DNA from: Ereboglobus sp. | GTDB lineage: Bacteria > Verrucomicrobiota > Verrucomicrobiia > Opitutales > Opitutaceae | NCBI GenBank assembly: GCA_029974595.1 | Contig: JARKRC010000069.1 | Coordinates: 1-64,000 of the forward strand | DNA length: 64,000 nucleotides | Direction of reading: 5' to 3' | Part shown: positions 470 through 62,918 of the stretch, in pieces | How the letters are laid out: each line of letters starts with the position of its first letter | Position numbering within the stretch: position 1 is the first letter of the stretch | Translations under genes and position numbers: made by a program | The notes under the pieces: generated by a model | What the model saw: only the letters and a program-made list of their open reading frames with translations | Databases searched by the model: none | What the model was told of the DNA's origin: nothing

Positions 470-3445
470 TTAGCGTATTTTGTCTTTATTGCCGATTTTC
501 TCGTCGAAAATCTTCAGAAGTTTCTTGATTCCAAAATTCTTATCGCCTTCGTGCCAGCGCGCAAAACCTCCGGTATCTGTAGAACGCAGCAATTCACCTG
601 CTTCGGCAAGCGCGGCGCGCGCGGCAACAAGATGCACGCGCGTCTGCTCGTGAGCGGTTGGCGACTGCGAGTAAGCAATGACAATTTCGTTTAGCATAGT
701 GTTGAGCCGTTCCATGACGAGCGCGGGAATGCGTAGGTTTTGATCGAAGAACCAGCGGCTGTGCTCGGGGATTCCCGAGCGCAGATGTTCTGCTTCGCGG
801 GCGACAGCGGCGAATGCCCGGCCTGATTGCGCTGTGCCGCGCAGGAGCGCGCCGATCTGGCCGTTGTCACCAGGTTCAGGCTCAACACGGAAAAAACCCA
901 CGCTTCCGGTATTCGGATTGTCGAGGCGATGCCCGTCGAGGGGGTTCTGTTTGCGTGCATCGGTTGAGAGTGCGCCAAGAAGCATTTCCGCCGCACGGGC
1001 ATAACGCATGTCCTGAAAAATATACTGGCGCTCGAAGCCTTCAAGGTCGGCCTTTTTCTGGCACCAATAGGCGTAATAATAATCTCGATACAAGCGCGCG
1101 ATTTTTGGAGCGAGCGCAGTGTCGAAATATTGCGCGGAGTATTTTTCGAGAAATGCGCCGGCGTCGAAATCCGCAAAACGCCACATCATCGCGGCATTGG
1201 CCGAAAGTTCGGTGACATGCTCGCGAATGTTGCCTGCATTGACCACGGTGAAGGCGAGCGGACGGGCGTTAAGCGCGTCAAGCACACGATAGTTGGCGGC
1301 CATTTTCCACGGGCCTTCAGCGGCGACGAGATGCGAGCCGGTCGAGGTGAATTGGAAATTGAGATAATAGCCGATGAGCAAATCCGGAGGCGCCTTGAAA
1401 GTGCGCACATCGGCGGCGGGGAAATGGTCGCGGCGCGCGGCGACAAAATTCCAAATCAAAGTCGGCTCGGCCGGCGGACGCAGCAGCCCGGCGGCGAAGA
1501 GGTCGGAGTTTTCGTTGTAAAGCGTCGTGCGCATCAGCGGCGCGGGATTGCCAGTGACCTCCTTCACGATGGCGATTTGACGCGCGAGCATTTCGCCGAT
1601 GATGCGTCCGCGCGCAGCCATATCGCCGGGCGCATCGGCGAATGTTTGCCAGAACGGAATGTCCCCGCCGCCGCGAAACGTCACGGTCCAGATGCATTCG
1701 AATCCGGCGCGCACGGCAGTCTCAACATGATAGCGCCAAAACTCGCGCAGGGCATCCACATTTTTCACGCCAAGTTGCGGAACAGGCTTGTCGGGCGTCA
1801 GCTTTTCCCAAAACCGTTTCCATGATCCGAGACCGCGGCCAATGCGCGAGCCCAATGGAGAGTGGTGATGCGTGGTGATGACCAGACCGTGTTTGTGCGC
1901 ATCAAGCGCGATGCCACCCGGTGTGTAAAGCGGTGTCGTCTTGTCGAGGTCGATCACTGTTTCCGTTTCAAATGTATTATATTTGAGACGGAGTATGGTC
2001 TCAAACATTGCGTCCGTGTTGGCGCGTTTCTCTGCCCTCCAAGGTCCCAGCATGTCCTGGTCGTTGTTAAACCAAGCCCGCCAGCGCACGTAAGGTGCAG
2101 CGTGCAGGCTTTCGAAATCGCCGGGCAGCATGACGCTCGTTTTGCGCTGCGGCTGCCAGTTGCTCCAAAACCAGAGCGGCGGCACACCGAGACATTCCTC
2201 GGTAAACGAGTAAATGGCATAAATGAGTCCGCGCATGTCGCCGCCTTCGAGAACAAGACGCGGGCCGGCGGCAGTCTTGACAAGACGCATGCCATGCGAC
2301 TCCGGCGTGGACAGACGTAAATCACGTTGCCATTCCCCAGCCTGTTCACGCCCGGTAAGGATCACGATGGCGGGCGCGCCGCCGGCTTTTGAGACGTCGG
2401 CGCCCATGAAAAGCGGTGAGGATTTGCCGAGGACTTTTTCCAAATCGCGTAACAGGTGGTTGATTGCGATTTGCTCGGGGCCGGAGAGTTTGCCGACGAC
2501 GAGGACGGGGATGCCGGGTTGGAGAGTGACGGATTTCCCTTTCGAAACCACGGGCTGGAAGCCCGTGCCACTCGACCCCATGGGCGAGACGCCCATGCCA
2601 CCCAACCCAAGAAGCGGAAGCATCGCCTTGGCGTAGGACTGACCGAGCAGGCGCGCAGAGGGGGCATCGTAATGAGGGATGTCATCGGGTTTATTGCGGA
2701 GGTTGTTCTCGAACTCGGGAGCGAGTGTGTCGATGGCTGCGGTGTGTGGCACGCGCGCGGGAAGTTCGAGGTAAACTTGATTGAGCGCGGAACTCGCCGA
2801 ACGGCGCCACGGACCGAGCGTGGCGCCGACAAAAGGCAAATCGGGTTTGCCGAGTGTAGAGCGGAAATCGGCGATGAGCGTGTCGAGTTGTTTGCAATAG
2901 TTGACGCCATTGTCTTTTTGTGCGCGGCGGCTGTCGGCTTCGCCTTGATTCCAGATGATTCCCGCAAGCGTGCCGTCCTTCGATGCGGCAAGCGCGGACT
3001 CCGTGGCCAATTGGAAAAGTGTGCGTCCATCGGGCCAATGGAAATCGCCTTTGTAGTCTTTCTGCCACTGACCGATTGACGTGCCGCCGAACGCAGCCGG
3101 TATCAGTCCAATGGATACATCGTCGGGCAGGGATTTCAGGAGTTCGCGGGCAAATGCGAGACCGGGGCCGACGCCTGCGACTTTCGGTTTGTCCTTGTGG
3201 AGTGGTTCGGTCGCCGGAACCCAACGGTCAGGTGAATCGAAAGCAAGGATGCGCGGATCGGCGGTTTTGTCGGACGCTACGAGTTTGCCCCGCCCCGCCA
3301 TGTTGGATTGGCCGGCGAGAAGAAAAACAAGAAACTTTTTCGCAGGCGGCGGTGTGATGGCTTGCGACGCTTCCGCAGCGCGCAAGATGCCTGTGAAACC
3401 GATAACGGGGATGAGGAGCGCAGGGATGAGGTTTTTGAAAAACAT
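470..3445 (-). CDS. Secreted CE6 (SASA) acetylesterase - GH115 alpha-glucuronidase fusion
   Basis: The protein has two parts. After a signal peptide (MFFKNLIPALLIPVIGFTG), residues ~35-290 form an SGNH/SASA esterase of the CE6 type: GQSNMAG carries the nucleophilic Ser, IWNQGEAD is the second conserved block and HYDAPS lies near the catalytic His. Residues ~310-990 resemble GH115 alpha-1,2-glucuronidases: GGDMRGLIYAIYSFTEECLG, ITTHHHSPLG and VTFRGGGDIPFW match family blocks. Together they would remove acetyl and (methyl)glucuronic acid groups from glucuronoxylan or a similar polymer in the periplasm or outside. The track start is a TTG; I chose the ATG six codons later because it begins the signal peptide. 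The linker holds two palindromes, annotated separately. It is the last gene of the minus-strand cluster, 48 bases after the GH3 gene. Confidence 0.85.
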   Translation of the reverse strand: MFFKNLIPALLIPVIGFTGILRAAEASQAITPPPAKKFLVFLLAGQSNMAGRGKLVASDKTADPRILAFDSPDRWVPATEPLHKDKPKVAGVGPGLAFARELLKSLPDDVSIGLIPAAFGGTSIGQWQKDYKGDFHWPDGRTLFQLATESALAASKDGTLAGIIWNQGEADSRRAQKDNGVNYCKQLDTLIADFRSTLGKPDLPFVGATLGPWRRSASSALNQVYLELPARVPHTAAIDTLAPEFENNLRNKPDDIPHYDAPSARLLGQSYAKAMLPLLGLGGMGVSPMGSSGTGFQPVVSKGKSVTLQPGIPVLVVGKLSGPEQIAINHLLRDLEKVLGKSSPLFMGADVSKAGGAPAIVILTGREQAGEWQRDLRLSTPESHGMRLVKTAAGPRLVLEGGDMRGLIYAIYSFTEECLGVPPLWFWSNWQPQRKTSVMLPGDFESLHAAPYVRWRAWFNNDQDMLGPWRAEKRANTDAMFETILRLKYNTFETETVIDLDKTTPLYTPGGIALDAHKHGLVITTHHHSPLGSRIGRGLGSWKRFWEKLTPDKPVPQLGVKNVDALREFWRYHVETAVRAGFECIWTVTFRGGGDIPFWQTFADAPGDMAARGRIIGEMLARQIAIVKEVTGNPAPLMRTTLYNENSDLFAAGLLRPPAEPTLIWNFVAARRDHFPAADVRTFKAPPDLLIGYYLNFQFTSTGSHLVAAEGPWKMAANYRVLDALNARPLAFTVVNAGNIREHVTELSANAAMMWRFADFDAGAFLEKYSAQYFDTALAPKIARLYRDYYYAYWCQKKADLEGFERQYIFQDMRYARAAEMLLGALSTDARKQNPLDGHRLDNPNTGSVGFFRVEPEPGDNGQIGALLRGTAQSGRAFAAVAREAEHLRSGIPEHSRWFFDQNLRIPALVMERLNTMLNEIVIAYSQSPTAHEQTRVHLVAARAALAEAGELLRSTDTGGFARWHEGDKNFGIKKLLKIFDEKIGNKDKIR
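2549..2603. repeat. Pair of short palindromes inside the CE6-GH115 linker
   Basis: Two hairpins lie in tandem: cacgggctggaagcccgtg followed by ccact, then catgggcgagacgcccatg followed by ccacc. Each is a 7-8 base perfect stem with a 4-5 base loop and a trailing GCCAC. They sit in frame and encode the peptide GGMGVSPMGSSGTGFQPVV between the two catalytic domains. In other frames the unit reads GWKPVP or HGRDAHAT, tags I recall in Verrucomicrobiota and Planctomycetes proteins. Similar units occur at 5874-5930 and 60796-60820. Confidence 0.85.
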
Positions 3446-3493
3446 TTTTCTATGGTGATTCAATTACAACTGATTTTGCGAAGATGCCAAATA

Positions 3494-5300: not shown

Positions 5301-6146
5301 TTAGTTTCCGAGCGTCGTGTGAAAGTTTCTGAGCCAGCGTGCGGCATCCGGCGGCGGCCATTGCCCGGCTATAAATGCGGGCAGCGCGTCGAGGCGGAAC
5401 GTCTCCCACGATTCGTGCTCGGAGCCGGGAATCACGGGGAAAAACGCGCATCGGGCGGCGCCAGCGGCTTCCTCGTCGAGGAGTGAATCGCCGAGCATGA
5501 GCACGCGCGATGGCAAGCCTGCGCGCACGGCGAGTTTTTGGAGAATGGCGGTTTTTGAACCGGTTTCCTGTGTAAGATATTCTGAAGCGAATGGCGAAAG
5601 CCCAGCGTGCTGCCACTCGGCGCGGATGGCCGCGTTGTTGCCGCCGGAAACGACGACAATTTCCGCGCACGCATCAGCGTCGCAGAGCGCGGCGGCAGCC
5701 CCGACGAAAGGCGCGGGCGGCGGCAGCGCGGCGCAGCGGCGGTTTACCTCGCGGCTGTAGGCGAGCGCGCGGGTGAGAGCGAGGTCGCCGGGGTGAGTGG
5801 CGAGGGCGCGCGCGAGCGAGAATTCGTTGCGCGGCGCGCCGGAATCGAGCCAGGTGAAAAAAGCATCAAGGCACACGGACTGGCAGCCCGTGCCACCCGA
5901 ACCATCACGGGCTGGCAGCCCGTGCCACTCCCGGAGAAAAATGCCGAGGGCTTCGAAGCGGTTTGCGCCGCGATGGCGCGAGCGGAGGTTGATGTTGAGG
6001 AAGCGTTCGGCGGCCTCGTTTGCGCGGTTTTTTATTTCCCAGATGTCAATGAGCGCAGGCGTAAAGGCGTGCCGGTGCTTTGGAGCCATCGCATCCAACA
6101 CGGTGCCATCTGAGTCTACCGCGATAATGAAAGGTGCGTGCTGCAT
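5301..6146 (-). CDS. HAD-superfamily phosphatase-like hydrolase
   Basis: Haloacid dehalogenase fold with all four motifs: DSDGTVLD (motif I, residues 11-18, nucleophile Asp plus acid/base Asp), VVVSGGN (motif II), GSKTAIL (motif III Lys) and MLGDSLLDEEAA (motif IV). It has 281 residues and no signal peptide, so it should be a cytoplasmic phosphatase or related enzyme; the substrate cannot be told from sequence. The cap region contains a glycine-rich insertion (DGSGGTGCQSV) made by the palindromic repeat at 5874-5930, probably a surface loop. It starts 3 bases after the autotransporter stop and ends 19 bases before the GH3 start, so it is likely in the same operon. Confidence 0.8.
   Translation of the reverse strand: MQHAPFIIAVDSDGTVLDAMAPKHRHAFTPALIDIWEIKNRANEAAERFLNINLRSRHRGANRFEALGIFLREWHGLPARDGSGGTGCQSVCLDAFFTWLDSGAPRNEFSLARALATHPGDLALTRALAYSREVNRRCAALPPPAPFVGAAAALCDADACAEIVVVSGGNNAAIRAEWQHAGLSPFASEYLTQETGSKTAILQKLAVRAGLPSRVLMLGDSLLDEEAAGAARCAFFPVIPGSEHESWETFRLDALPAFIAGQWPPPDAARWLRNFHTTLGN
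5874..5930. repeat. Pair of short palindromes inside the HAD gene
   Basis: Two copies of the unit occur: cacggactggcagcccgtg followed by ccacc, and cacgggctggcagcccgtg followed by ccact, separated by a few bases. The unit is the same as in the CE6-GH115 linker. The open reading frame is kept through it. The first copy has one stem mismatch (gga against ggg). Confidence 0.85.
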
Positions 6147-6149
6147 GTC

Positions 6150-8627
6150 TCACCATGTGCGACGATAGCCGAGGCTCACCGCCCAAGGGCGCGTGTAGAA
6201 GTCGGCTTTGTTGTATTCATATCCCAAATACAGAATACTCTGGTCGGAAATGGTGACGGCGATGCCGCCGCCAGCCTCGAAACGCCAGCCCGCATATTGG
6301 GTTTCCCAGGATTGTTTGCCCACATGGACGAGACCTCCGCCGGCATCGCTGCGCACGATGCCGGCCTTCGCGTAAGGATACCAGCGTTTGCCACCCCTGA
6401 AGCCCAAAGACACCTGGCCGCGATATTGCGTGGCCTTGGAACGGTCGATTTCCACATGCATTCCGGTGCTGGTGTCGTAATCGCCGCCGTTAAACCATGC
6501 GCTCGCCATTTGCACGGATGGCTCAATCCAGAAGCGATGCCCAAACGAAAACTTGCGGCCAAACTCAGCAGAGAAACCGCCGGCCCACGTGTTGTAGTCG
6601 CCGGTGGTATGGACTTTGGCAATGGATGTGACGGCGAAGCTGCTTTTGTATTGGTTCCCCTTAATGACAAAATCCGCGAACCACCCGGCATCGTGCAGCC
6701 AGGTGACATAAACGCCGCCGTTGTGATCGATGGTGTTGCCCTCGCCGAAAGTATCGTAGGTGCGGTCGGAACGGTTTATTGAAACATACGCGCCGAAAAG
6801 AACGCGCGACTCGGCGCGCGGGATGATGCGATCAACGCCGAAGATGCCGCCGTAGGTGTTCTGCTCGTAGGGAACGGTGGTAAGCTCTTTCTGCGTTTCG
6901 AGCCGATAGGCGGAAGCTTGATACCATGTGCTGGTGAGGGCCTTCTCGGGCTTGGGCAGCGCGCGGATTTCGCCAAAGCGATTGCGAAGCGAGTCGAGAC
7001 TGTAGTGCCATTCAGTGCCGAGCGAGGCGGCAGTGCTGATGATGGCATCGGCGGCGATGCTGTTGTTTCCCGTGGCCGCGAGTTTGTATTCGGTGGCACC
7101 GCTGCTGGCGTTGATTTCGGGCACGAGGAAAAAGGTGCCCATGCCGCCATCCACGTCGTTGGCGGTTATCAACGCATCACCGCCTTTGTTGATTGTGAGA
7201 ATCGTGAGTTTTTTCTCCGGGTCAATCGAGCCGCCGATATTCTGGAGCCGAAGTTCGTGGTCTCCCGTCGCGGAGCCGGTAACAAGTATTTTGTCGCCGG
7301 TCTCATTGCCGAGATGCACGGACATTTCGATGACGCCGAAGCCTGACATGTCGCCGTCAATCGTGAGGGTGCGGCCAACGGTATCCTGGTCCGTGCCGAA
7401 GCGCACGGCGCCGCGATTTTCGAGCTTTTTGATGGTCTGGTCGAATCCGCCCATGTCGAAAGCCGCGCCTGAATCTATCGAAATGCGGCTGTGCGCAAGG
7501 ATGTTCGCGGTGCCGCTCAAAAGCACGCCTTCGGCGATGTGTGTCACGCCATTCATGGTGTTTTCGGCGTAAAGAATGAGCGTGCCTGCGCCGATTTTCC
7601 TGAATGCGACCGTGTCCTCGGCGCCGTTGTATCCGAAGGTGCTGCTCATGATGACTTCGTTCGTGCCGGTATCGACGGTAAAGGCGCTTTTGTCCGCGGC
7701 GACGCCGGTTGCATTGATAGTGAGTTCGCCAAAGCCGCCAAAGAAATCCCCGATGTCTGCGATGGCGCGCACACCACCGCCGTTGAGGTCGAGTTCGGCA
7801 AAACCGTCGCCGCGCGCAATGCCGGCGGAGGCAATGACGCCGCCTTGAAGATGGACAGTGCCATGTCCGCTAACCTCCCTGCCGATATAAACTATCGGAG
7901 CTTCAATCGTGGCATCGTCCGTGATGATAAGCGTGCCCGTTCCCGTGTGCCCGATTGTCAGATATTGGGTCGCCGATTCATAACCCACAATCAGATGCGA
8001 ACTGCCGCTCAGCAGCAACGTGCCCTCCCCACCGGTACCGCTCTGCCCTCCGACTCTCATGTAGCTACGGGTTGTGAATGTTGCATTGTCACGAAGGCTC
8101 AAGGTTCCAGATGCAGGGAACGTTCCGGTAACACCTATGCGCACGGATACTGTTGTGAAAATCGAAGAGTTTCCAGACATGTCCACCACGCCCACATTCT
8201 CGGAGCCGATTTGAAATGAACTGCCTGCCGTATTCATTGATGCGTTTTCCGACAGGATGAGCCGTCCGCCCCACCCCGTGCTTCTTCCCACATTCATCGA
8301 ACCAGCCTCCAAGTAAGCCGAGCCTGTGATTTCCATCTGTCCGCCTGCGCCTGATATTCCGAAGTTCATCGCGCCAATTGCGAGGCTTCCTGAAGCAAAA
8401 ACCGGCGCATTGGTTCCATACGAAGCGTCCGTGATATAAACGTTGTCTTCAGTTGTAGGAGGTGTCGTGCCCACCCCGGCACTCGTCGTCCAGTTGCCCG
8501 TGCCGGTGAAATCATTGCTATCACTACCGGAAAAATACTTATTTGCGGCAAAGGTGGCTGGGGCGCAGGCAAGCGCCAACGTTCCGAACACTGTGGCGAG
8601 AATATTGAAATTTTTGTGCGAGTGCAT
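6150..8627 (-). CDS. Autotransporter with beta-strand-repeat passenger and C-terminal barrel
   Basis: An 825-residue exported protein. It has a signal peptide ending near ATFAANK. The passenger (about 30-520) is rich in Gly/Ser/Thr strand repeats of the PATR type, for example KIGAGTLILYAENTMNG. The last ~280 residues form an outer-membrane autotransporter barrel that ends in aromatic YRRTW. The barrel begins after a linker typical of these proteins (WHYSLDSLRNRFGEI). The passenger shows no catalytic motif, so an adhesive or surface role is inferred. It lies 39 bases downstream of a longer paralogue, and both lie inside the glycan cluster. They may help hold the cell to the polymer or be co-regulated surface proteins; the function is not shown by the sequence. 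Confidence 0.85.
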   Translation of the reverse strand: MHSHKNFNILATVFGTLALACAPATFAANKYFSGSDSNDFTGTGNWTTSAGVGTTPPTTEDNVYITDASYGTNAPVFASGSLAIGAMNFGISGAGGQMEITGSAYLEAGSMNVGRSTGWGGRLILSENASMNTAGSSFQIGSENVGVVDMSGNSSIFTTVSVRIGVTGTFPASGTLSLRDNATFTTRSYMRVGGQSGTGGEGTLLLSGSSHLIVGYESATQYLTIGHTGTGTLIITDDATIEAPIVYIGREVSGHGTVHLQGGVIASAGIARGDGFAELDLNGGGVRAIADIGDFFGGFGELTINATGVAADKSAFTVDTGTNEVIMSSTFGYNGAEDTVAFRKIGAGTLILYAENTMNGVTHIAEGVLLSGTANILAHSRISIDSGAAFDMGGFDQTIKKLENRGAVRFGTDQDTVGRTLTIDGDMSGFGVIEMSVHLGNETGDKILVTGSATGDHELRLQNIGGSIDPEKKLTILTINKGGDALITANDVDGGMGTFFLVPEINASSGATEYKLAATGNNSIAADAIISTAASLGTEWHYSLDSLRNRFGEIRALPKPEKALTSTWYQASAYRLETQKELTTVPYEQNTYGGIFGVDRIIPRAESRVLFGAYVSINRSDRTYDTFGEGNTIDHNGGVYVTWLHDAGWFADFVIKGNQYKSSFAVTSIAKVHTTGDYNTWAGGFSAEFGRKFSFGHRFWIEPSVQMASAWFNGGDYDTSTGMHVEIDRSKATQYRGQVSLGFRGGKRWYPYAKAGIVRSDAGGGLVHVGKQSWETQYAGWRFEAGGGIAVTISDQSILYLGYEYNKADFYTRPWAVSLGYRRTW

Positions 8628-8666
8628 GATGAATGTGGGCGAGGCGGATTGCGGTGTTGATTGGGT

Positions 8667-11600
8667 TTACCAGAAAAGGCGGTAGCCGAGATTGAACGAC
8701 CAGGGTCGCGTGTAGTAATCGGCGCGCGCGTATTCGTAGTCGAAGTAAACCTGGCTTCGTTTGGTCAGCGCATAGTTTGCACCGAGACCGGCTTCCATGC
8801 GCAGGCCGTCGATGTCGGCGCGCAGGCTGGCGTCGCTTCCGTAGAAACGGACTTCGCCGTCGTCGTTGTTCGTGCCGACGAGCGCCGCTTTCATCCACAG
8901 CGAGAGGCGGTCCTTGAAGATTTTGCCCCAGCGGACGGAACCGCGATACTGCGTGGCCTCGCTGTCAAAAATGACAACGCGCGAGCCGGTGCTCGTGGTG
9001 AAGCGGGCTTCGTCGATTTTTGCATAGGCAAACTGGCCGGCAACCTCGACCCACCAGCCGGCGCGGCTCTGGAAAAGGCGGCCAAACTCGAATGAGGCGC
9101 CGCAGGCTTTGTTGTCGTAGGCGGCTGTCGAAAGCAGGCTGCCGTCGGCGTCGCGCGCGGCGAAGTCATTGTCGTATTTGTTCATCTTGACAGTGGCATC
9201 GACATACAATCCGGACTTGTGGAACCAGGTGATGTAAAGGCCGGCGGACAGGCTGTCGGTGGAACCGTCGCCACGATTGTCGAAACTGCGCTCGATGGTG
9301 GTGAAACCGGCAAATGCGCCGGCGAGAACGTGTGCGTTTTGACCAAGGCGGAAGGCCTTGTCGCCGCCGACCGTCACGCCGTAGGCATCCTGGGAGAAAG
9401 CGTAGCCGCCGAGTTCGGCATCCGCATCAACATGGTAGGCGCTGCCGCGCGCCCAGACATTGCCACCGGGCCGCTGCCCGCCGGACGCGGCGAACTCGCG
9501 ACGGACGTCGCCCATGCGGCTGCCGAGGCTATCGAGCTCGAAGTGCCAGTCGGCGGACATGACCGCGGCGGTGTTCAACACGGCGTCGGCTTCGTGGCTG
9601 AGGCTGTCGGTCGCATACAAGTAGTGCGTGCCGCCATCCTGACGAAGTCCGTAAGTATAACCGGTGCTGCTGGCGATTTCGTTGGCAAGCGTGAAGCGGG
9701 CCTGCGGGTCGTTGCCGGTAATGATGTCGAGACGTTCGACACCCCAATAATTCGGAGTGTCCGTATTGTTCACGATGACCTTGTAATTGGACGCAACACC
9801 TGCGGGCTCCCCAAGGGTCAACCGGTCGCCGAGGCCGCGGGAAAGGTCGGTGCGGAAGACGATGACACCCGTGCCGGTGGACGTGAGTTTCCGTCCGATG
9901 GCGACGTTGCCGTAACTGCCTGTGCCGGCAATGGCGGGGTCGCTGATCCAGAGCGTGCCGCTGAGCGCGAGTGACGGAATCGCGAGGCTGGCCCGGCGAT
10001 TGACGAGGCCGGATGTCGCGTCAACCGAAACCACGGCGTCGGGGCCAAACGGATTGGCGACGGATGCAGCAACATAAAGATTGGAACCGTTGTTCACGCT
10101 GACCGTTGGAATAATGTTCGTCTGCGTGAGGATGATGGACGTGCTGTTGCTGACAACGAGCCCGCCTGTCGTGCCGGTACTGACAATCGGATGCGCAAGC
10201 GTGACGGGTGTTGCGCCGCCGGAACTGTATTCGAGGGTGGCGTCATCGCCCATTGTGATGCTTTTTGCGCCGGTGATGAGGTTCGAAGAGCCCGAGGCAA
10301 TGATGCGACCGGCTTCAATCGAAACCGCGCCGCTGAATCCGCTGTTGTCGCCAGTAAAGGCAATGGTGCCGCCGCCCGCCTTGATAAGTTGTCCCGCGCC
10401 AGTCGCCGCACTGACAAGATTGTTGGACATGGTGTCCGCGCCGGAGATGTCCAACGAGAGCACGCTGCCCGTGCCGCCAAACGTGATTGCGCCGCTGCCG
10501 AGACCCGTGGCGTTATTGAGCAAAACCGCGGCGGTATTGGCGATTGTGGTGGATGCGGTGAGGCCGGTGTTCGCGCCGTTGATGGCGAGCGTGCCGCCCG
10601 CGATGCTGAGCGCGCCCGCTCCGGTGAGCACGCCGTTTGCAAGGCCGCCCGTGTTGATTTTGAGGGAACCGCCGGCGAAATTGAGTGTGGAGCCCGCGGC
10701 AGTCGTGAGATTGCCGACCGTCTGCGAACGAGCGTTGAGATCGATTTCGGCACCCGCCGAGAGATCGAGCGCAACGGTCTGGCTGAGGGCGTTGTTGACG
10801 CCGAGTATGAGCTTGCCCGCAGTGATACTGGTCGTGCCGGTGTAATTGCTGGCGACGGCGAGCGTGACCGGGGCATTGGCGGCATTGATGGCGAGATTCC
10901 CGCTGCCGCCAATGGCCGCCGAGAAAACCGTGCCGACGCCGGTCGCTCCAGCGTCGGGCGCGAGGGTTAGCGTTTGCCCGTCCAGAATGGAAACACTGAG
11001 AAGCCTGAAGTTCACGCCGAGTCCGCCATCGGTGACAAAACCATAATTGTAGGTGCCGGTGGCGACGGCGCTGCCGCCTTGCGTGATGTCCACGGTGCGC
11101 GCAGTGGCGGCACTCACAGCATGACCGTCCTGATCAACAAGCGTAAGTCCGCCCGTGCTGCCGGTGACAGTCGTGGCGTTGATGAGGCGCGTGACGGCGG
11201 CTCCATCGTCCTGCGCGAGAAGATTCGCATCAGGCATCTCGGCGGCACCGTCAGACGGGAAGGAAACCTGAATCGTGCCGGTGCCGAGTGTCAGCGTGTT
11301 GGTGGAGATGATTCCGGCGGCGGCGGTGTCGGGTGGAATCGTAACGGAGAAAACAAGTTTGCCGCCATCGAGCGACAGGCTGCGGATGTTTTGCGTGCCC
11401 GTGCCGACGGTGGTGACGTTGCCTGCGGCGAGCTGGAGCGCGGTGTTGGCGAGGGAGCTCGTGTTCTGGCCGGAGAGGTTGAGCGTGCTTTGTCCGAGAC
11501 GAACAGTGCCTGCGAAAGCGTTTCCGGCGGCAGCGGTAAAGCTCACGGCGGATGCAGGCGCATCAAGAGAGATGAAAAGCGTGCCTGCGCCGCTAAGCGC

Positions 11601-14081
11601 GTTTTGAACGGTATAGGAAGCGCCATTTGTGATGCGAAGCGCCGCGCCGGCGGCGATGTTGACGGCGCCTTGGGTGGCGACGCCGCTGTTTTGGAGTTCG
11701 AGCGCGCCGCCCGCGACGCTGATACCGCCCGCATAGGAATTGGCGGCATTGTTGAGTGTGAGCGTGCCGGTGTTGATTTTGGCGAGGCTGCCGTTGCCTG
11801 TGATGGCGGCGGTGTAGGTGGCGGCGCCAGCCTGGTCGAAGATAAGCGCGGCGTTGTTGGCGATGTCGGCATTGCCGAGCGTGCGTGCGTTCCCTTGAAG
11901 CGTGCCGCCAGCGAGGACGATGCCGTGCTGGAAGTAATTCGAACCGGAGTTTGCGAGGATGAGCGCGCCCGCGCCGGTTTTTGTGAGCTTTCCCTCCGCG
12001 CCGGCAGCAGCGGGAGCAACGGTGCTGGTGCTAATGGCGTAATTGCCCGTGAACGTGTAGCCGGTGGCGGTGTCCACTGTCATATCGGCTGCATGGACAT
12101 CGACATCCACGGACACAGTGTGCGTGCCGGCTGCGGTATCGTCAAAGATAACGGAATCGCCGCCAATGAACAAAGTGTCGGCAGCCTGCCAGTTGGCGAA
12201 ATTGTCTTTCCACGAACCGGTATTGGTGCCGCTCCACTTGTTGTCGGCGATGTTGCTGCTGGCCACGTCAAGCCAGAGTTCATTACCGTTGAGAATTGAA
12301 TAGCTGGCCGTCGTGCGTCCGCTGAGCGCGCCGGAGTTGATGGTGGTGTTGAGGGCGCTGGTATCGCTGAGGGAAAGCGGCGTGCCGGTGGCGGTGATGA
12401 GCTTGTAAGACCCGGTTAATCCAGAACTGAGATCGATGGTGCTGGAGCCGCTGCGGACAAGAGTGCCGACGATGAGACTGTCGTTCGAACCATCGAAGAG
12501 ATCGTAGCGAAGCGTGGTGTTGTTCACCAGCGCAAGCGTGCCTGTGATGGTAAGCGTTTCAGCCGAGGGAGCGCCGTGTGTTGCGCCGATGGTGATGACG
12601 CTGCCACCGGCAGTATTCACCTTGGCAAGCGTGCCGTTGCCGCCGAGTCCGGCACCGGCGGCGAGGTTGACCGTGCCGCCGAGCCTGGCATTCGCGCCAT
12701 TAAGGATGAGGCTGCCGGCATTGACATTGGTGACTCCGGCAAATGCCGAATGGTTGGCGGCGAGCGTCAACGCTCCCGTGCCGGTTTTCGTGAGGGAGGT
12801 CATGCCGTTCAGCGTGCCGCTAAAAACGGTGTTGGCTGCATTGGAGAGCGTGAGCGCGCTGCCGGCTGCGGCGACATTGCCGGCGCCGGAAAGTCCGTTA
12901 AGCGTTTGGGCCTGTCCGTTGGCATCGAGTATCGCGCCTGCCGCGATGTCCATGCCGCTGCTGCTCGCGAGAGCATTGGCAACGTTTAGTTTGAGCGTGC
13001 CCGCGCCGACGCGGGTCGCACCGGCATAGGCGCTCGCCTTGCTGAGCGTAAGCGTGCCGCTGCCGATTTTTGCGAAGGCGACCGAGTCACTGGCACCGTT
13101 GTAGGCGAAGGCGTTTGTCGCGGTGACATTGAATCCATTGGTGTCGAAGGTGAACGCGCTCTGGCCTGCGGCGACTCCCGTGCCGTTGATGGTCAGATTG
13201 CCAAGACTCGCGAAGAAATTGGTGCTGGCGGCGGCGGCGCGCACGGTGCCGCCGTTGAGGTCGAGCGTGCCGTCGCCCGCGCCCTTCGTTATGCTGGTTG
13301 TGACAAGCACGCCGCCCTTGAGCTGGAGCGTGCCTTTGCTGCTTGCCCCAACGGCGATAGTCGTGCTCTCTACAGTCGTGAGTGTGGCGGCGTCATTGAT
13401 GACAAGCGTGCCAGTTCCACTGTTTCCGACGACGAGCCCTCTATTGATAGTCACGCGTGAGCTTCCGCTCAGTAGCGCCGTCCCCAAGGATGCCATTGCG
13501 GCGGTCGTGTTTGTCCCTCCGATGAGCATAAATCCATTTGTGGATAATTGCGCATTATCACTGATCAACAAGGTGCCGCTTGCGGTTGGACCAGCCCCGA
13601 TTGTCACATTGGCCTTTGCAATAAGCGAGCTGTTTTCAAACATGTCAAGCACGCCGACAGACTCATGCCCGATAAAGACAGTTGTATTGTGGGTGCTGCT
13701 GAAAACAGCCGAGCCTGACATTACAAGTTTTCCACCCACCGTGCTGCGTCCAATTTGGAGTGCTCCAGTCTGAAAATAAGCCGATCCATTCAGCCATAGT
13801 TCGCCATAAGTGCTGCTCATTCCAACATTCACCGCCTGGGCTGCAGTAAGGAAAGTGCCCGAACTAAGAATTGCATGGAAATTGTCACCATTGAGGACGT
13901 ATAAAGTTGTATATATTCCCTCTACCAATGGCACGTCGGCTCCTTCAGAACTCCAATTGGCCGGATCATTCCAATCGGAACTATTGGTCCCCAGCCAACG
14001 TGCTGCGGCCTGAGCTTGGGCTGGAAAAATGAAAGTCGCTAGTATTGCGATAACGCTGAGAAGGATTTTGCTCGGATGCAT
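8667..14081 (-). CDS. Large autotransporter (1804 aa) with PATR repeats
   Basis: The longest gene of the window. A signal peptide (MHPSKILLSVIAILATFIF, cut near AQAQAAAR) is followed by ~1450 residues of repeats such as KIGSGTLTLSKASAYAGATR and KTGTGALTLAANHSAFAGVT, the autotransporter-associated beta-strand (PATR) unit, folding as a beta-helix. About residues 1490-1804 are the outer-membrane barrel, ending in NLGYRLFW with a terminal aromatic. No protease, glycosidase or binding motif was recognised in the passenger. The repeats make the opposite strand look open (plus-strand ORFs at 10081, 12514 and 13123), but these are shadows. A palindromic operator candidate lies about 90 bases upstream of the start, so this gene may have its own promoter. 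Confidence 0.9.
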   Translation of the reverse strand: MHPSKILLSVIAILATFIFPAQAQAAARWLGTNSSDWNDPANWSSEGADVPLVEGIYTTLYVLNGDNFHAILSSGTFLTAAQAVNVGMSSTYGELWLNGSAYFQTGALQIGRSTVGGKLVMSGSAVFSSTHNTTVFIGHESVGVLDMFENSSLIAKANVTIGAGPTASGTLLISDNAQLSTNGFMLIGGTNTTAAMASLGTALLSGSSRVTINRGLVVGNSGTGTLVINDAATLTTVESTTIAVGASSKGTLQLKGGVLVTTSITKGAGDGTLDLNGGTVRAAAASTNFFASLGNLTINGTGVAAGQSAFTFDTNGFNVTATNAFAYNGASDSVAFAKIGSGTLTLSKASAYAGATRVGAGTLKLNVANALASSSGMDIAAGAILDANGQAQTLNGLSGAGNVAAAGSALTLSNAANTVFSGTLNGMTSLTKTGTGALTLAANHSAFAGVTNVNAGSLILNGANARLGGTVNLAAGAGLGGNGTLAKVNTAGGSVITIGATHGAPSAETLTITGTLALVNNTTLRYDLFDGSNDSLIVGTLVRSGSSTIDLSSGLTGSYKLITATGTPLSLSDTSALNTTINSGALSGRTTASYSILNGNELWLDVASSNIADNKWSGTNTGSWKDNFANWQAADTLFIGGDSVIFDDTAAGTHTVSVDVDVHAADMTVDTATGYTFTGNYAISTSTVAPAAAGAEGKLTKTGAGALILANSGSNYFQHGIVLAGGTLQGNARTLGNADIANNAALIFDQAGAATYTAAITGNGSLAKINTGTLTLNNAANSYAGGISVAGGALELQNSGVATQGAVNIAAGAALRITNGASYTVQNALSGAGTLFISLDAPASAVSFTAAAGNAFAGTVRLGQSTLNLSGQNTSSLANTALQLAAGNVTTVGTGTQNIRSLSLDGGKLVFSVTIPPDTAAAGIISTNTLTLGTGTIQVSFPSDGAAEMPDANLLAQDDGAAVTRLINATTVTGSTGGLTLVDQDGHAVSAATARTVDITQGGSAVATGTYNYGFVTDGGLGVNFRLLSVSILDGQTLTLAPDAGATGVGTVFSAAIGGSGNLAINAANAPVTLAVASNYTGTTSITAGKLILGVNNALSQTVALDLSAGAEIDLNARSQTVGNLTTAAGSTLNFAGGSLKINTGGLANGVLTGAGALSIAGGTLAINGANTGLTASTTIANTAAVLLNNATGLGSGAITFGGTGSVLSLDISGADTMSNNLVSAATGAGQLIKAGGGTIAFTGDNSGFSGAVSIEAGRIIASGSSNLITGAKSITMGDDATLEYSSGGATPVTLAHPIVSTGTTGGLVVSNSTSIILTQTNIIPTVSVNNGSNLYVAASVANPFGPDAVVSVDATSGLVNRRASLAIPSLALSGTLWISDPAIAGTGSYGNVAIGRKLTSTGTGVIVFRTDLSRGLGDRLTLGEPAGVASNYKVIVNNTDTPNYWGVERLDIITGNDPQARFTLANEIASSTGYTYGLRQDGGTHYLYATDSLSHEADAVLNTAAVMSADWHFELDSLGSRMGDVRREFAASGGQRPGGNVWARGSAYHVDADAELGGYAFSQDAYGVTVGGDKAFRLGQNAHVLAGAFAGFTTIERSFDNRGDGSTDSLSAGLYITWFHKSGLYVDATVKMNKYDNDFAARDADGSLLSTAAYDNKACGASFEFGRLFQSRAGWWVEVAGQFAYAKIDEARFTTSTGSRVVIFDSEATQYRGSVRWGKIFKDRLSLWMKAALVGTNNDDGEVRFYGSDASLRADIDGLRMEAGLGANYALTKRSQVYFDYEYARADYYTRPWSFNLGYRLFW

Positions 14082-59880: not shown

Positions 59881-62832
59881 TTATTTTGCGGCTTCGTAAA
59901 ACTCGGCTTCGATAATGCTCAGTGCTTTGCCGCCGATTTTTTCATCGCCGGTGGATGCATTTTTCTGATTCGCGAGTTCTTTTATTTTCAGTTCGTCGTT
60001 CGACTCAGATGAGGCGATGAGACTGACGCGCACGGTTTTTCCCGCGGCTGCCGGTTGCACCGGAAGAGTGACGTAACCGAGCGTTTTATCCGTGGAGCCG
60101 TTGTAGATTTCCGCTCCGTCAAGAGTGATGCGAATCGGATAGCTGCGACTCTTCCATCCCGAAAGTCGGAGGGTGATTTCGCTGAGTTTTGCGGAGCGTT
60201 CGAACGTGTATTCAATCCATGCGGCGGCGGTTTCGTTGGCACTGGTCCATTCCGTGGTTTCATCATCATCGTAACTTTTCGCGGCGTTCGCATTGTTGGA
60301 ACCAGCCCGCGCCGAGACAACCTCAACAGGGATGCGCGTAACCTTGTAAGAAGGTGTCGATGGCGTCGGGCCACGGTCAATGCGCGGGATGCCGGGAGCG
60401 GCGGGAACGGAGGCAAGTCCGTTGACAGACGGATATGCGATTGACTGAAGCGTTAGCGTGGCGGGTTCCAACACGCCGGATTTTGCGCTGAGCATGATTG
60501 TGCCGGGCTGGCGTGTGGTGCGGACAAGAACGCGATTCACACCACATTCCAAGGGAAGGTTTTTCGAGAGGATGCAATTGTCCGGACCTTGCGCGATGCC
60601 ACCGCGCCATTCTGCGGGGCCGTCGAGGGTGAAGTGGACGGTGTCTAGCGCGGTCGGACAACGGCGGCCATAGGCGTCGATCATTTCGACTTCGATTAGC
60701 GCGAGATCGTGCCCATCAGCATCGTAGGATTTTTTCCCGAGATTGGTGAGGCGCAGCGCCACAGGATCGCCTGCGGTTTGCCTGGTGTCCTCACACACGG
60801 GCAAGCCGCCCGTGCCACTCAAACCGACCGCGCGCAGTTCGCCCGGCTGCCATTGCACATTCTTAAAGGTGAAGAGGAATCGTTTGCTTTGCAGGCCGTA
60901 TCCGAGTGATTTGCCGTTGAGGAAAAGTTCAACGGTGTCGGCGCTCGAAACGACATGGACATCTTTCACGGTGTCCGGGGCATAATTCCAATGACCGATG
61001 ATGTGTGCGCGCGGTTTTTCGACATCAACCCAGCCGTCCCACATGACTTGGTGCGCATAGAAGCCGTCCTTCGGAATGCGCATCGCATCCACCACGCCTG
61101 TGCGGCGGTAGTTTTCGGCGCCTCGATGATGCGTGTTGGAATCGGAAAAAATGATTTTCGCACCACCACTGTTCACGCGACGTCCAGTGCCGGGGCGTTC
61201 GAGCCAGTAGTCATGCCAGCGCACGACATTTTCCATAGCGAGCGAGTCCTGATTCCGATTGTATTCATGCGCGGGCTTGCCCCTATGCTCAGGACCGTCA
61301 CCATCCTTATGATAAGGTGGCGAGAAATCGTCCCAGTATTTGCGCAAACCTTCGTCGCGAGAATACTCCATCATCCAGTAAGGGATGCGAGCGCTTTTAT
61401 TTATATAAAGCATGTGGCCGCCATATTCCGCCACTTTGCTGTTGAGCATGTCGCGACTGCCGCTGGCGCGTCCGCCATGGGGATCGTATTTATCGCGCAG
61501 CGCTTTCATCTCCGCCATGTGCGCCTCGCTAACGCCGGCATTGCCGGACTCGTAAAAGAGTATGCTGGGGTTGTTGCGATTGTAGATGATGGCATCACGC
61601 ATAAGCTCAACGCGCTGTCCCCACCAGCGTCCCTTTGCATCCTTTTCGGAGTCGCCGGCGGGCATTGCCTGGATGAGGCCGACACGGTCGCACGACTCCA
61701 CATCCTGCTTCCAAGGTGTGATGTGCATCCAGCGCACGAGATTGCCACCGCTCGCAACCATGAGGCCGTTGCTGTAATCGGTAAGCCATGCGGGGACGCT
61801 TGCGCCGACGGCGGGCCATTCGTTCGAAGTGCGTTGCGCATAGCCGTGCATCTGGATGACCCGGTCGTTGAGTTTGATCATGCCATTGGAAAATTCGGTC
61901 TTACGAAATCCGGTGCGCGTGGTGACCGTGTCGGCGGGCTTGCCGTCAACGATGAGCATGGTGCGCACGTCGTAGAGCGCACCGTGGCCCCAGCTCCAGA
62001 AATCGATGTTCGAAACGCGGACACTCGTTTTGACGAGGGTGGTTTTTCCAGGAGCGAGTTTGACGGCAGGCCCGGCGCCCTGGGCCACGCCAAGCGCGGG
62101 TATTTCCAATGTGTAAGAAAACGTCTGCGTTTCCCCGGTATCGTTGCGCACTTCGGATTCGGCGTAAATCGTGGCGGTTCGTTTCGCCATGTCGAAATCG
62201 GCGGCATATATATAAACACCCGTCGTCTGGAAATTCGAGTAGAGAGGCAGTGTTTGATATAATTCGCCCGTTATATGCAAACGGACGTTTTTTGTGATGC
62301 CGCCATAGTTGGCGTTGAAGTTTTTATCCGACCACTGATATCGCGAGCCGGTGGCTTTTTCCTTGTAGGCCCAGTCGTTGTCAATACGCACGGCGATGGT
62401 ATTTTCGCCGGTCTTGATATTGGATGTAAGGTCGAAACCAAAGGCCATGACGCCGTTTTCGCTGAGGCCGACATGCTTGCCGTTTACGTAAACCTCGGCT
62501 ACCTGCCGCACGCCCTCAAACTCGATGAACACCTTCGATCCCTTGAGCTGGGCGGCTGTAAGCGTAAAATGCTTTCGATACCACGCGATGCCGGTGGAGT
62601 GGTCTGCGATGTCCTTGCAAAACGCGTCATCCTCATTCCATGCGCGCGGAAGCGTGACGAGCTTCCATTGCGAGTCGTCGAAGCGCGTTTCGCTTGCGCC
62701 CGCGGGATCGCCGACGTGAAGATGCCAGTCGAGGTTGAGGTTGTAGGTCGCGCGTTCAACAGCTTTGACAGCGATCGCAAAAAATGTCGCGAAAAACGCG
62801 TTTGCTACACAGAGAAACCTTCCTATTTTCAT
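59881..62832 (-). CDS. Secreted GH2 glycosidase with discoidin-like C-terminus
   Basis: A signal peptide (MKIGRFLCVANAFFATFFAI) and the GH2 N-terminal domain (WYRKHFTLTAAQLKGSKVFI, EFEGVRQVAEVYVNGKHVG). The TIM barrel has NNPSILFYESGNAGVSEAH near residue 423 (acid/base Glu) and RIPYWMMEYSRDEG near 487 (nucleophile). Ig-like domains and an F5/8 (discoidin)-like domain follow (SYDDDETTEWTSANETAAAW, IEYTFERSAKLSEITLRLSG). It is a paralogue of the 31464-34574 enzyme. A palindromic unit in the Ig region encodes GTGGLPVCED. I start at MKIGRF; the track start lies inside the inverted repeat upstream. Galactoside or glucuronide activity is likely. Confidence 0.88.
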   Translation of the reverse strand: MKIGRFLCVANAFFATFFAIAVKAVERATYNLNLDWHLHVGDPAGASETRFDDSQWKLVTLPRAWNEDDAFCKDIADHSTGIAWYRKHFTLTAAQLKGSKVFIEFEGVRQVAEVYVNGKHVGLSENGVMAFGFDLTSNIKTGENTIAVRIDNDWAYKEKATGSRYQWSDKNFNANYGGITKNVRLHITGELYQTLPLYSNFQTTGVYIYAADFDMAKRTATIYAESEVRNDTGETQTFSYTLEIPALGVAQGAGPAVKLAPGKTTLVKTSVRVSNIDFWSWGHGALYDVRTMLIVDGKPADTVTTRTGFRKTEFSNGMIKLNDRVIQMHGYAQRTSNEWPAVGASVPAWLTDYSNGLMVASGGNLVRWMHITPWKQDVESCDRVGLIQAMPAGDSEKDAKGRWWGQRVELMRDAIIYNRNNPSILFYESGNAGVSEAHMAEMKALRDKYDPHGGRASGSRDMLNSKVAEYGGHMLYINKSARIPYWMMEYSRDEGLRKYWDDFSPPYHKDGDGPEHRGKPAHEYNRNQDSLAMENVVRWHDYWLERPGTGRRVNSGGAKIIFSDSNTHHRGAENYRRTGVVDAMRIPKDGFYAHQVMWDGWVDVEKPRAHIIGHWNYAPDTVKDVHVVSSADTVELFLNGKSLGYGLQSKRFLFTFKNVQWQPGELRAVGLSGTGGLPVCEDTRQTAGDPVALRLTNLGKKSYDADGHDLALIEVEMIDAYGRRCPTALDTVHFTLDGPAEWRGGIAQGPDNCILSKNLPLECGVNRVLVRTTRQPGTIMLSAKSGVLEPATLTLQSIAYPSVNGLASVPAAPGIPRIDRGPTPSTPSYKVTRIPVEVVSARAGSNNANAAKSYDDDETTEWTSANETAAAWIEYTFERSAKLSEITLRLSGWKSRSYPIRITLDGAEIYNGSTDKTLGYVTLPVQPAAAGKTVRVSLIASSESNDELKIKELANQKNASTGDEKIGGKALSIIEAEFYEAAK
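60796..60820. repeat. Short palindrome inside the GH2 gene
   Basis: cacgggcaagccgcccgtg followed by ccactc: the same unit as at 2549-2603 and 5874-5930, here as a single copy. It sits in frame, in a loop between Ig-like strands. Confidence 0.8.
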
Positions 62833-62858
62833 AAAAATGTCACTCATCGGAGCGCAGT

Positions 62859-62918
62859 TTTTGTAGCGCAACCCGTCCCCTTTGACGATTTGTCAAACTA
62901 AAAGGCTGCGCTACAAAA
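62859..62918. repeat. Nested inverted repeats between the FN3 gene and GH2
   Basis: Outer perfect 12-base arms ttttgtagcgca / tgcgctacaaaa (62859-62870, 62907-62918) enclose an inner hairpin tttgac / gtcaaa (62881-62897). It lies between the FN3 gene stop and the GH2 start. It could be a terminator, an mRNA element or another mobile hairpin. There is no clear T-run after the stem. Confidence 0.6.

Follow-up and report, generated by a model that had tools for sequence, protein, structure and literature searches.

The stretch of an Ereboglobus contig analysed here (64,000 nucleotides, hereafter the window) contains an open reading frame with a CE6 and a GH115 part, and two palindromes lie where these parts meet. 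The question is whether such palindromes serve as a translated linker between catalytic domains and whether they belong to a REP-like family that can enter genes without breaking the frame, as the original prediction held. The search for an answer leads from the palindromes to their transposase, which is itself found within the frame of an unrelated enzyme.

The palindromes of the window and their family

Both palindromes are tagged hairpins of 23 bp, at a spacing of 30 bp (Table 1). The host frame stays open through both of them: they encode residues 287-305 (19 aa, GGMGVSPMGSSGTGFQPVV) between the Pfam SASA and GH115 matches, which confirms that two in-frame palindromes of one family form the linker. 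Homologues of the CE6 part end around residue 285 and those of the GH115 part begin around residue 311, which makes the REP pair itself the CE6/GH115 junction. A second fused homologue, including one with a REP-free linker, was not found in a sample of 132 genomes of the order, and when plasmids were searched with the CE6-GH115 protein, no match spanned most of it. As no REP-free fusion was found for the proposed comparison of homologues with and without the repeat, insertion at this exact spot is one possible origin of the linker.

It might be argued that the REP pair did not enter an existing linker, but fused two genes, either through recombination between a REP after the CE6 gene and a REP before the GH115 gene, or through read-through of a stop-free REP. 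We regard this as a serious possibility, at somewhat less than even odds: both the ends of the homologues and the lack of another fusion in the 132 genomes fit with it, whereas these genomes are a sample only and REPs have clearly entered existing genes elsewhere (PurL and alpha-2-macroglobulin, A2M).

Table 1. Repeats and host frames in the window, and enzymes that carry an in-frame RAYT.
Feature	Position or locus	Strand	Details
REP copy 1	2549..2571	+	CACGGGCTGGAAGCCCGTGCCAC; loop TGGAA; GCCAC foot 2567-2571; host frame reads GTGFQPV
REP copy 2	2579..2601	+	CATGGGCGAGACGCCCATGCCAC; loop GAGAC; GCCAC foot 2597-2601; host frame reads GMGVSPM
CE6-GH115 host ORF	470..3463	-	SASA/CE6 residues 44-282; GH115 residues 456-802 (Pfam)
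REP copy in HAD-like ORF	5874..5896	+	reads WHGLPAR/GTGCQSV as a pair with the copy at 5906..5928
Second REP copy in HAD-like ORF	5906..5928	+	loop TGGCA
HAD-like hydrolase ORF	5301..6146	-	REP pair is residues 73-92, within the Pfam Hydrolase match (8-231)
Single REP in GH2 ORF	60796..60818	+	residues 691-699, between DUF4982 (641-692) and Glyco_hydro2_C5 (720-814)
GH2 ORF with single REP	59884-62892	-	Pfam
RAYT host ValRS	L268, L291, L292, L299		four sites; profile
RAYT host LeuRS	L274, L289		same region; profile
RAYT host, IleRS-type	L300		Pfam gives the class I family; IleRS by eye
RAYT host AlaRS	L320, L321, L322		L320 and L322 by profile; L321 by eye
RAYT host FabZ	L330		profile; five more by alignment
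RAYT host IspG	L272		profile
RAYT host PurH	L337		profile
RAYT host HypF	L281		profile
RAYT host HsdR	L273, L279		profile
RAYT host MetH	L265, L276		by eye
Further RAYT hosts			PglX-like, Eco57I enzymes, B12 radical-SAM proteins, creatininase, adenosine deaminase; profile

A search of the 4.07-Mb genome for the core pattern GGGCN5GCCCRTGCCAC gives 204 exact matches, and the reversed-pattern control gives 0. Loop positions 1 and 5 covary (T..A, G..C, A..T), which means that the stem itself is conserved, beyond mere sequence. In 111 aligned copies the GTGGC foot is almost invariant and is followed by a weaker YCRAMCC, and the close neighbour pairs (n=41) comprise 22 inverted pairs with the feet outward and 19 tandem pairs. 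Given the high copy number, the foot, the outward inverted pairs and a cognate RAYT flanked by the same REP (see below), the palindromes are a REP/REPIN family; the genome-wide pattern search thus bears out the proposal of a REP-like element.

Copy numbers of the core pattern differ strongly among relatives: 293 in G136, 213 in G135, 73 in G405, 28 in G091 (Ereboglobus sp. PH5-10, of the same genus, with identical match coordinates in G430) and 0 in many others. A scan of public genomes with a slightly stricter pattern also gave matches in records of Planctomycetota, Lentisphaerae, Kiritimatiellae, Hydrogenedentota, Sumerlaeota, Acidobacteria, Armatimonadetes and Cyanobacteria, of which single matches are weak proof because a handful is expected by chance (as an estimate) at that collection size. 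Elsewhere in the window, positions 6150-14081 are occupied by two large ORFs of 825 and 1804 aa; their sequence is repetitive and passenger-like, the C-terminus is beta-barrel-like, and both resemble autotransporters.

Repeats inside genes and the transposase inside MenF

To describe REPs within genes we used 1.47 Mb of sampled contigs with 145 REP elements in 92 clusters, of which the 80 that are not at an edge were classified by calling the surrounding sequence as coding with a simple codon score. The reading frame continues through 24 clusters with coding sequence on both sides, 14 clusters have one coding side and 42 have none; not a single one breaks a frame. For random positions these values are 51% in frame and approximately 6% opposed, shifted or stopped. 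The predicted entry into genes without a break of the frame is therefore observed, and the zero broken frames point to selection, which is no proof of frame-preferring insertion.

In-frame REPs are hosted by AroA, Lpd, SucB, PurL, MetH, CobN (two), MutL, Mpl, Fmt, IspH and A2M. The suggested preference for inter-domain loops holds in part: domain calls place the repeat between domains in SucB and at the CE6-GH115 junction, and the sites in MutL and the first one in MetH are presumably inter-domain as well, but in AroA, CobN, Lpd and IspH the copies lie within a domain. In this genome PurL carries a REPIN plus other inserted sequence, absent in two sister species; the A2M insert is also absent in sister species, and the MutL REPs occupy one site that is kept in three species.

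A similar refinement applies to the claim that the unit can be read in other frames. All six frames are possible, but the bias is strong: one register (GTGFQPV antisense, with its mirror HGLEARAT in sense) accounts for 34/40 in-frame copies and for 11/11 singletons, and the other four frames total 6/40. The register is its own mirror on the opposite strand, and its excess possibly reflects tolerance of the peptide or a codon-phased choice of target.

Some further observations concern PurL. Its ORF (L063:10161-14636, +) also reads FRIPHSAFRIFSD and STIPHSAIRIPHSKRM, which look like a second, different in-frame repeat; one of the two is near the start of the ORF and perhaps upstream of the true start. 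The insert (L063, ~13790-13860) continues after the REPIN with CTCCGTGATCTCCGTGCCTCCGTGGTG, which is repetitive and absent in the two sister species, making the insert longer than the REPIN. In G133, of the same genus, contigs C267 and C269 break at the position of the PurL REPIN of the window genome, as is expected from a repeat there.

A Y1/RAYT transposase gene was indeed found upon searching. The genome contains 6 Y1 matches, one of which (C10) sits between two clusters of three REPs each, of the same family. This RAYT lies in frame inside isochorismate synthase (MenF): a single open frame of 770 aa holds the RAYT at approximately residues 277-469 and Chorismate_bind at 505-760. With the NF047646 profile the C10 copy scores 78.7 bits (cut-off 80) and the other copies 58-73 bits. 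Three other Y1 genes (L253, ~11124-11876; L254, ~10176-11105; L252, ~9368-9943) have different hairpins on both sides; because these differ in sequence, one REP family per RAYT is suggested.

In two other genera of Opitutaceae (G136 and G411), the same MenF site is occupied by an in-frame RAYT that has the same REPs. Elsewhere this site holds a decayed REPIN (G091 and G132) or no recognisable REP (G114). We initially took the MenF genes of sister species as clean empty sites, a reading that was withdrawn in view of the decayed REPIN (20/23 REP bases, against at most 17 in other 150-base windows of the same loci). Among the three MenF carriers the RAYTs are 62-65% identical and the hosts 60-83%. 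As the RAYT identities do not follow those of the host, simple co-divergence of RAYT and MenF is unsupported, and repeated arrival or replacement at the site is as likely as descent.

A clean co-occurrence between REP number and a C10-like RAYT is contradicted by G135, which is rich in REPs (213, as given above) yet lacks a close relative of the C10 RAYT; the link between REP and RAYT consequently rests on flanking and not on co-occurrence. Two side observations can be added. The MenF loop of G134 (L229) holds a long, perfect-looking in-frame palindrome (GATGTGGGCGGAGTGCC...GGCACTCCGCCCACATC) that is unlike the REP, as if the site were a hotspot. In G133 the RAYT profile gives 75 weak matches; many lie in frames of ~360 aa, and they probably represent a multicopy element related to IS200-type transposases.

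RAYTs in frame inside other enzymes

When the C10 RAYT is searched against 289 genomes of the same phylum, many of the top matches lie within open frames of 700-2175 aa. The picture is similar in 294 genomes of the phylum of G439 (Sedimentisphaerales, Planctomycetota) and in some of 25 genomes from mixed phyla. Counting a RAYT as embedded if at least 75 aa precede and at least 60 aa follow it in frame, 39/64 best loci contain an embedded RAYT; these loci are the best match per genome instead of a random sample, and many carriers are MAGs. The hosts (Table 1) were identified by profile matches, often on both sides of the RAYT, with the exceptions assigned by eye or by alignment.

By alignment to solved structures, the LeuRS insert of L274 is located between residues 374 and 379 of the T. 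thermophilus enzyme and the ValRS insert of L268 between residues 420 and 447. Junctions of RAYT and host recur, for FabZ in six species and for radical SAM in three, and are also present in G136, whose genome is complete, and in the cultured Ereboglobus sp. PH5-10, where the RAYT lies in an ORF of the creatininase family and MutL carries REPs. Contig C18 of the latter genome has, close to one end, an AlaRS-like frame (L416/L418) preceded by a different Y1 transposase and by REP-like peptides, perhaps a further embedded case.

Guest RAYTs at shared sites are under purifying selection. For the RAYT, dN/dS is approximately 0.05-0.06 in two radical-SAM pairs out of three, and in FabZ pairs it amounts to roughly 0.1-0.3; these values are rough, as several pairs have a dS that is saturated or cannot be computed. 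The HUH motif (NHVH) and the catalytic Tyr are invariant or nearly so in 31 aligned RAYTs, and the linkers between RAYT and host span 19 to 60 residues, with length changes that are always in frame. On the side of the host, the strong match to LeuRS, ValRS or AlaRS in genomes checked for these enzymes is the one that bears the RAYT; a second synthetase match of comparable strength was not seen there. One RAYT-bearing AlaRS (G564:C30:27062-27789) is split over two frames of 692 and 638 aa, due to a frameshift, a sequencing error or early decay.

In predicted models the RAYT fold is confident and the REP linkers are disordered, with lower confidence for the MenF part. The model of L330 matches, as a single chain, both the REP-bound TnpA_REP (4er8, the first match) and FabZ. 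The REPs of the window genome belong to the same mobile-element family as these embedded RAYTs; since the RAYT gene lies in frame within that of the host, RAYT and host enzyme apparently form one protein chain.

A transposase probably lodged in genes that are hard to lose

Overall, we consider it probable (roughly 70%) from the sequences that a REP/REPIN family and its related HUH/Tyr RAYT live in frame in genes that are hard to lose, free of splicing and seemingly as a single chain with the host. In such a scheme a RAYT related to IS200/IS605 transposases would mobilise the REPs: judging from its family, the HUH enzyme would act on single-stranded REP hairpins and move REP, REPIN or REP-RAYT-REP units. 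These may enter genes and spacers alike, with frameshifting or protein-inactivating copies being lost, so that surviving genic copies would be stop-free, a multiple of three bases long and translated as a flexible linker. Similarly, a RAYT gene bracketed by REPs, in frame and in sense within an essential or conserved enzyme, would apparently be translated as an extra self-folding domain. An indispensable host gene might then keep the transposase, and with it the REP population, in the long term and without splicing. What we infer is that the fusion is translated as a whole, that both of its parts are active, that the RAYT carries out transposition and that residence in such genes favours persistence. 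For a broader statement the odds seem about even, namely that a RAYT lineage of Verrucomicrobiota, Planctomycetota and neighbours is a translated guest domain of essential enzymes with REP-encoded linkers, comparable to an intein without splicing.

The simplest alternative is that these are ordinary intragenic REPs, neutral insertions tolerated in loops or linkers, with RAYT fusions that are incidental and irrelevant to persistence. Intragenic REPs and RPEs are published (PMC3733652) and several hosts carry their copies in linker regions; still, the 39 embedded loci in many host families and the purifying selection on same-site RAYTs across saturated synonymous distances make this explanation unlikely, though it deserves some weight. 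More doubtful is a co-option of the RAYT for the host enzyme or cell, with selection acting on host benefit instead of persistence of the element. It would agree with the view of RAYTs as domesticated transposases (PMC8266576, PMC8049555) and with purifying selection at fixed sites, but the host functions are unrelated (tRNA synthetases, FabZ, restriction enzymes, MenF) and the RAYT is absent from the MenF site in close relatives.

Chance read-through, misjoined contigs or pseudogene hosts appear very improbable as a general cause. The many MAGs among the carriers and the split AlaRS might raise such a suspicion, and long RAYT proteins were discarded by earlier authors as fusions or annotation errors (PMC6006769), whereas the recurrence of the FabZ and radical-SAM junctions (also in a complete genome and in Ereboglobus sp. 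PH5-10), the conservation of both host halves and the bearing synthetase as the only copy found argue against it. Least probable of all is removal of the insert after transcription or translation, as RNA, as protein or through ribosome bypass. Removal would render insertions into essential enzymes harmless, and IStrons achieve this via group I introns (PMC4227781). Ten RAYT loci gave no match to an RNA family in Rfam, however, and the Pfam matches of RAYT-bearing ORFs include no splicing-type domain, and self-splicing RNA and inteins were rejected on these grounds; moreover, the inserts are in frame and stop-free with linker lengths that vary only in frame, none of which is required under removal.

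Residence of RAYTs in hard-to-lose genes, our preferred reading, adds to what is known of REPs in one respect: the new part is the cognate RAYT in frame within host enzymes, as REPs in genes are already published. Di Nocera et al. (2013) described intragenic REPs, with GTAG copies most numerous in Opitutus terrae, which also has a GTGG-footed family (PMC3733652). Like the present family, those GTAG-20 REPs (foot mostly GTGG) form tagged hairpins and dimers, have copies in frame within housekeeping genes and come from the same bacterial family, a likeness that is by description only; the survey reports REPs in genes and REP-flanked RAYT genes, but not RAYTs in frame within enzymes. With RAYT/TnpA_REP and REPtrons (PMC2817692, PMC6006769, PMC8266576) the present elements have in common the HUH motif, the catalytic Tyr and flanking cognate REPs with a GT[AG]G foot, whereas in that literature RAYTs are free-standing genes and here they lie in frame inside other enzymes. 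In RAYT subclass 2.4, REPs occur in frame within the tnpA_REP genes themselves, and members of unexpected length were excluded as fused genes or misannotations (PMC6006769). No publication on RAYTs inside host enzymes was found in the open-access literature.

The Rickettsia RPEs are alike in being palindromes read in frame inside housekeeping genes (likened by description; we do not claim membership). For these no associated transposase is described in the literature consulted, whereas the REP family here has a cognate RAYT that is itself embedded. Inteins, homing endonucleases and IStrons likewise place a selfish nuclease or transposase within essential, conserved genes; inteins and IStrons, however, bring a splicing domain or ribozyme, while the embedded RAYTs were found with neither and the guest apparently stays in the protein.

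RAYTs have been described as mostly single-copy and domesticated, with no evidence of tnpA_REP mobility (PMC8266576, PMC8049555). If our reading is true, RAYTs would have to be mobile or to re-home, given that they reside at several tRNA synthetase sites and, in three genera, at the same MenF site; their host genes would shield them from loss. Since REP-bracketed RAYTs occur in many unrelated genes and sites differ in presence and absence among relatives, this mobility would be directly testable. Proteins bearing a RAYT may at present be annotated under the wrong half. The cases would also provide natural examples of the insertion of a whole domain being tolerated by tRNA synthetases, FabZ and others, and suggest a possible way for a mobile element to inhabit essential genes without splicing.
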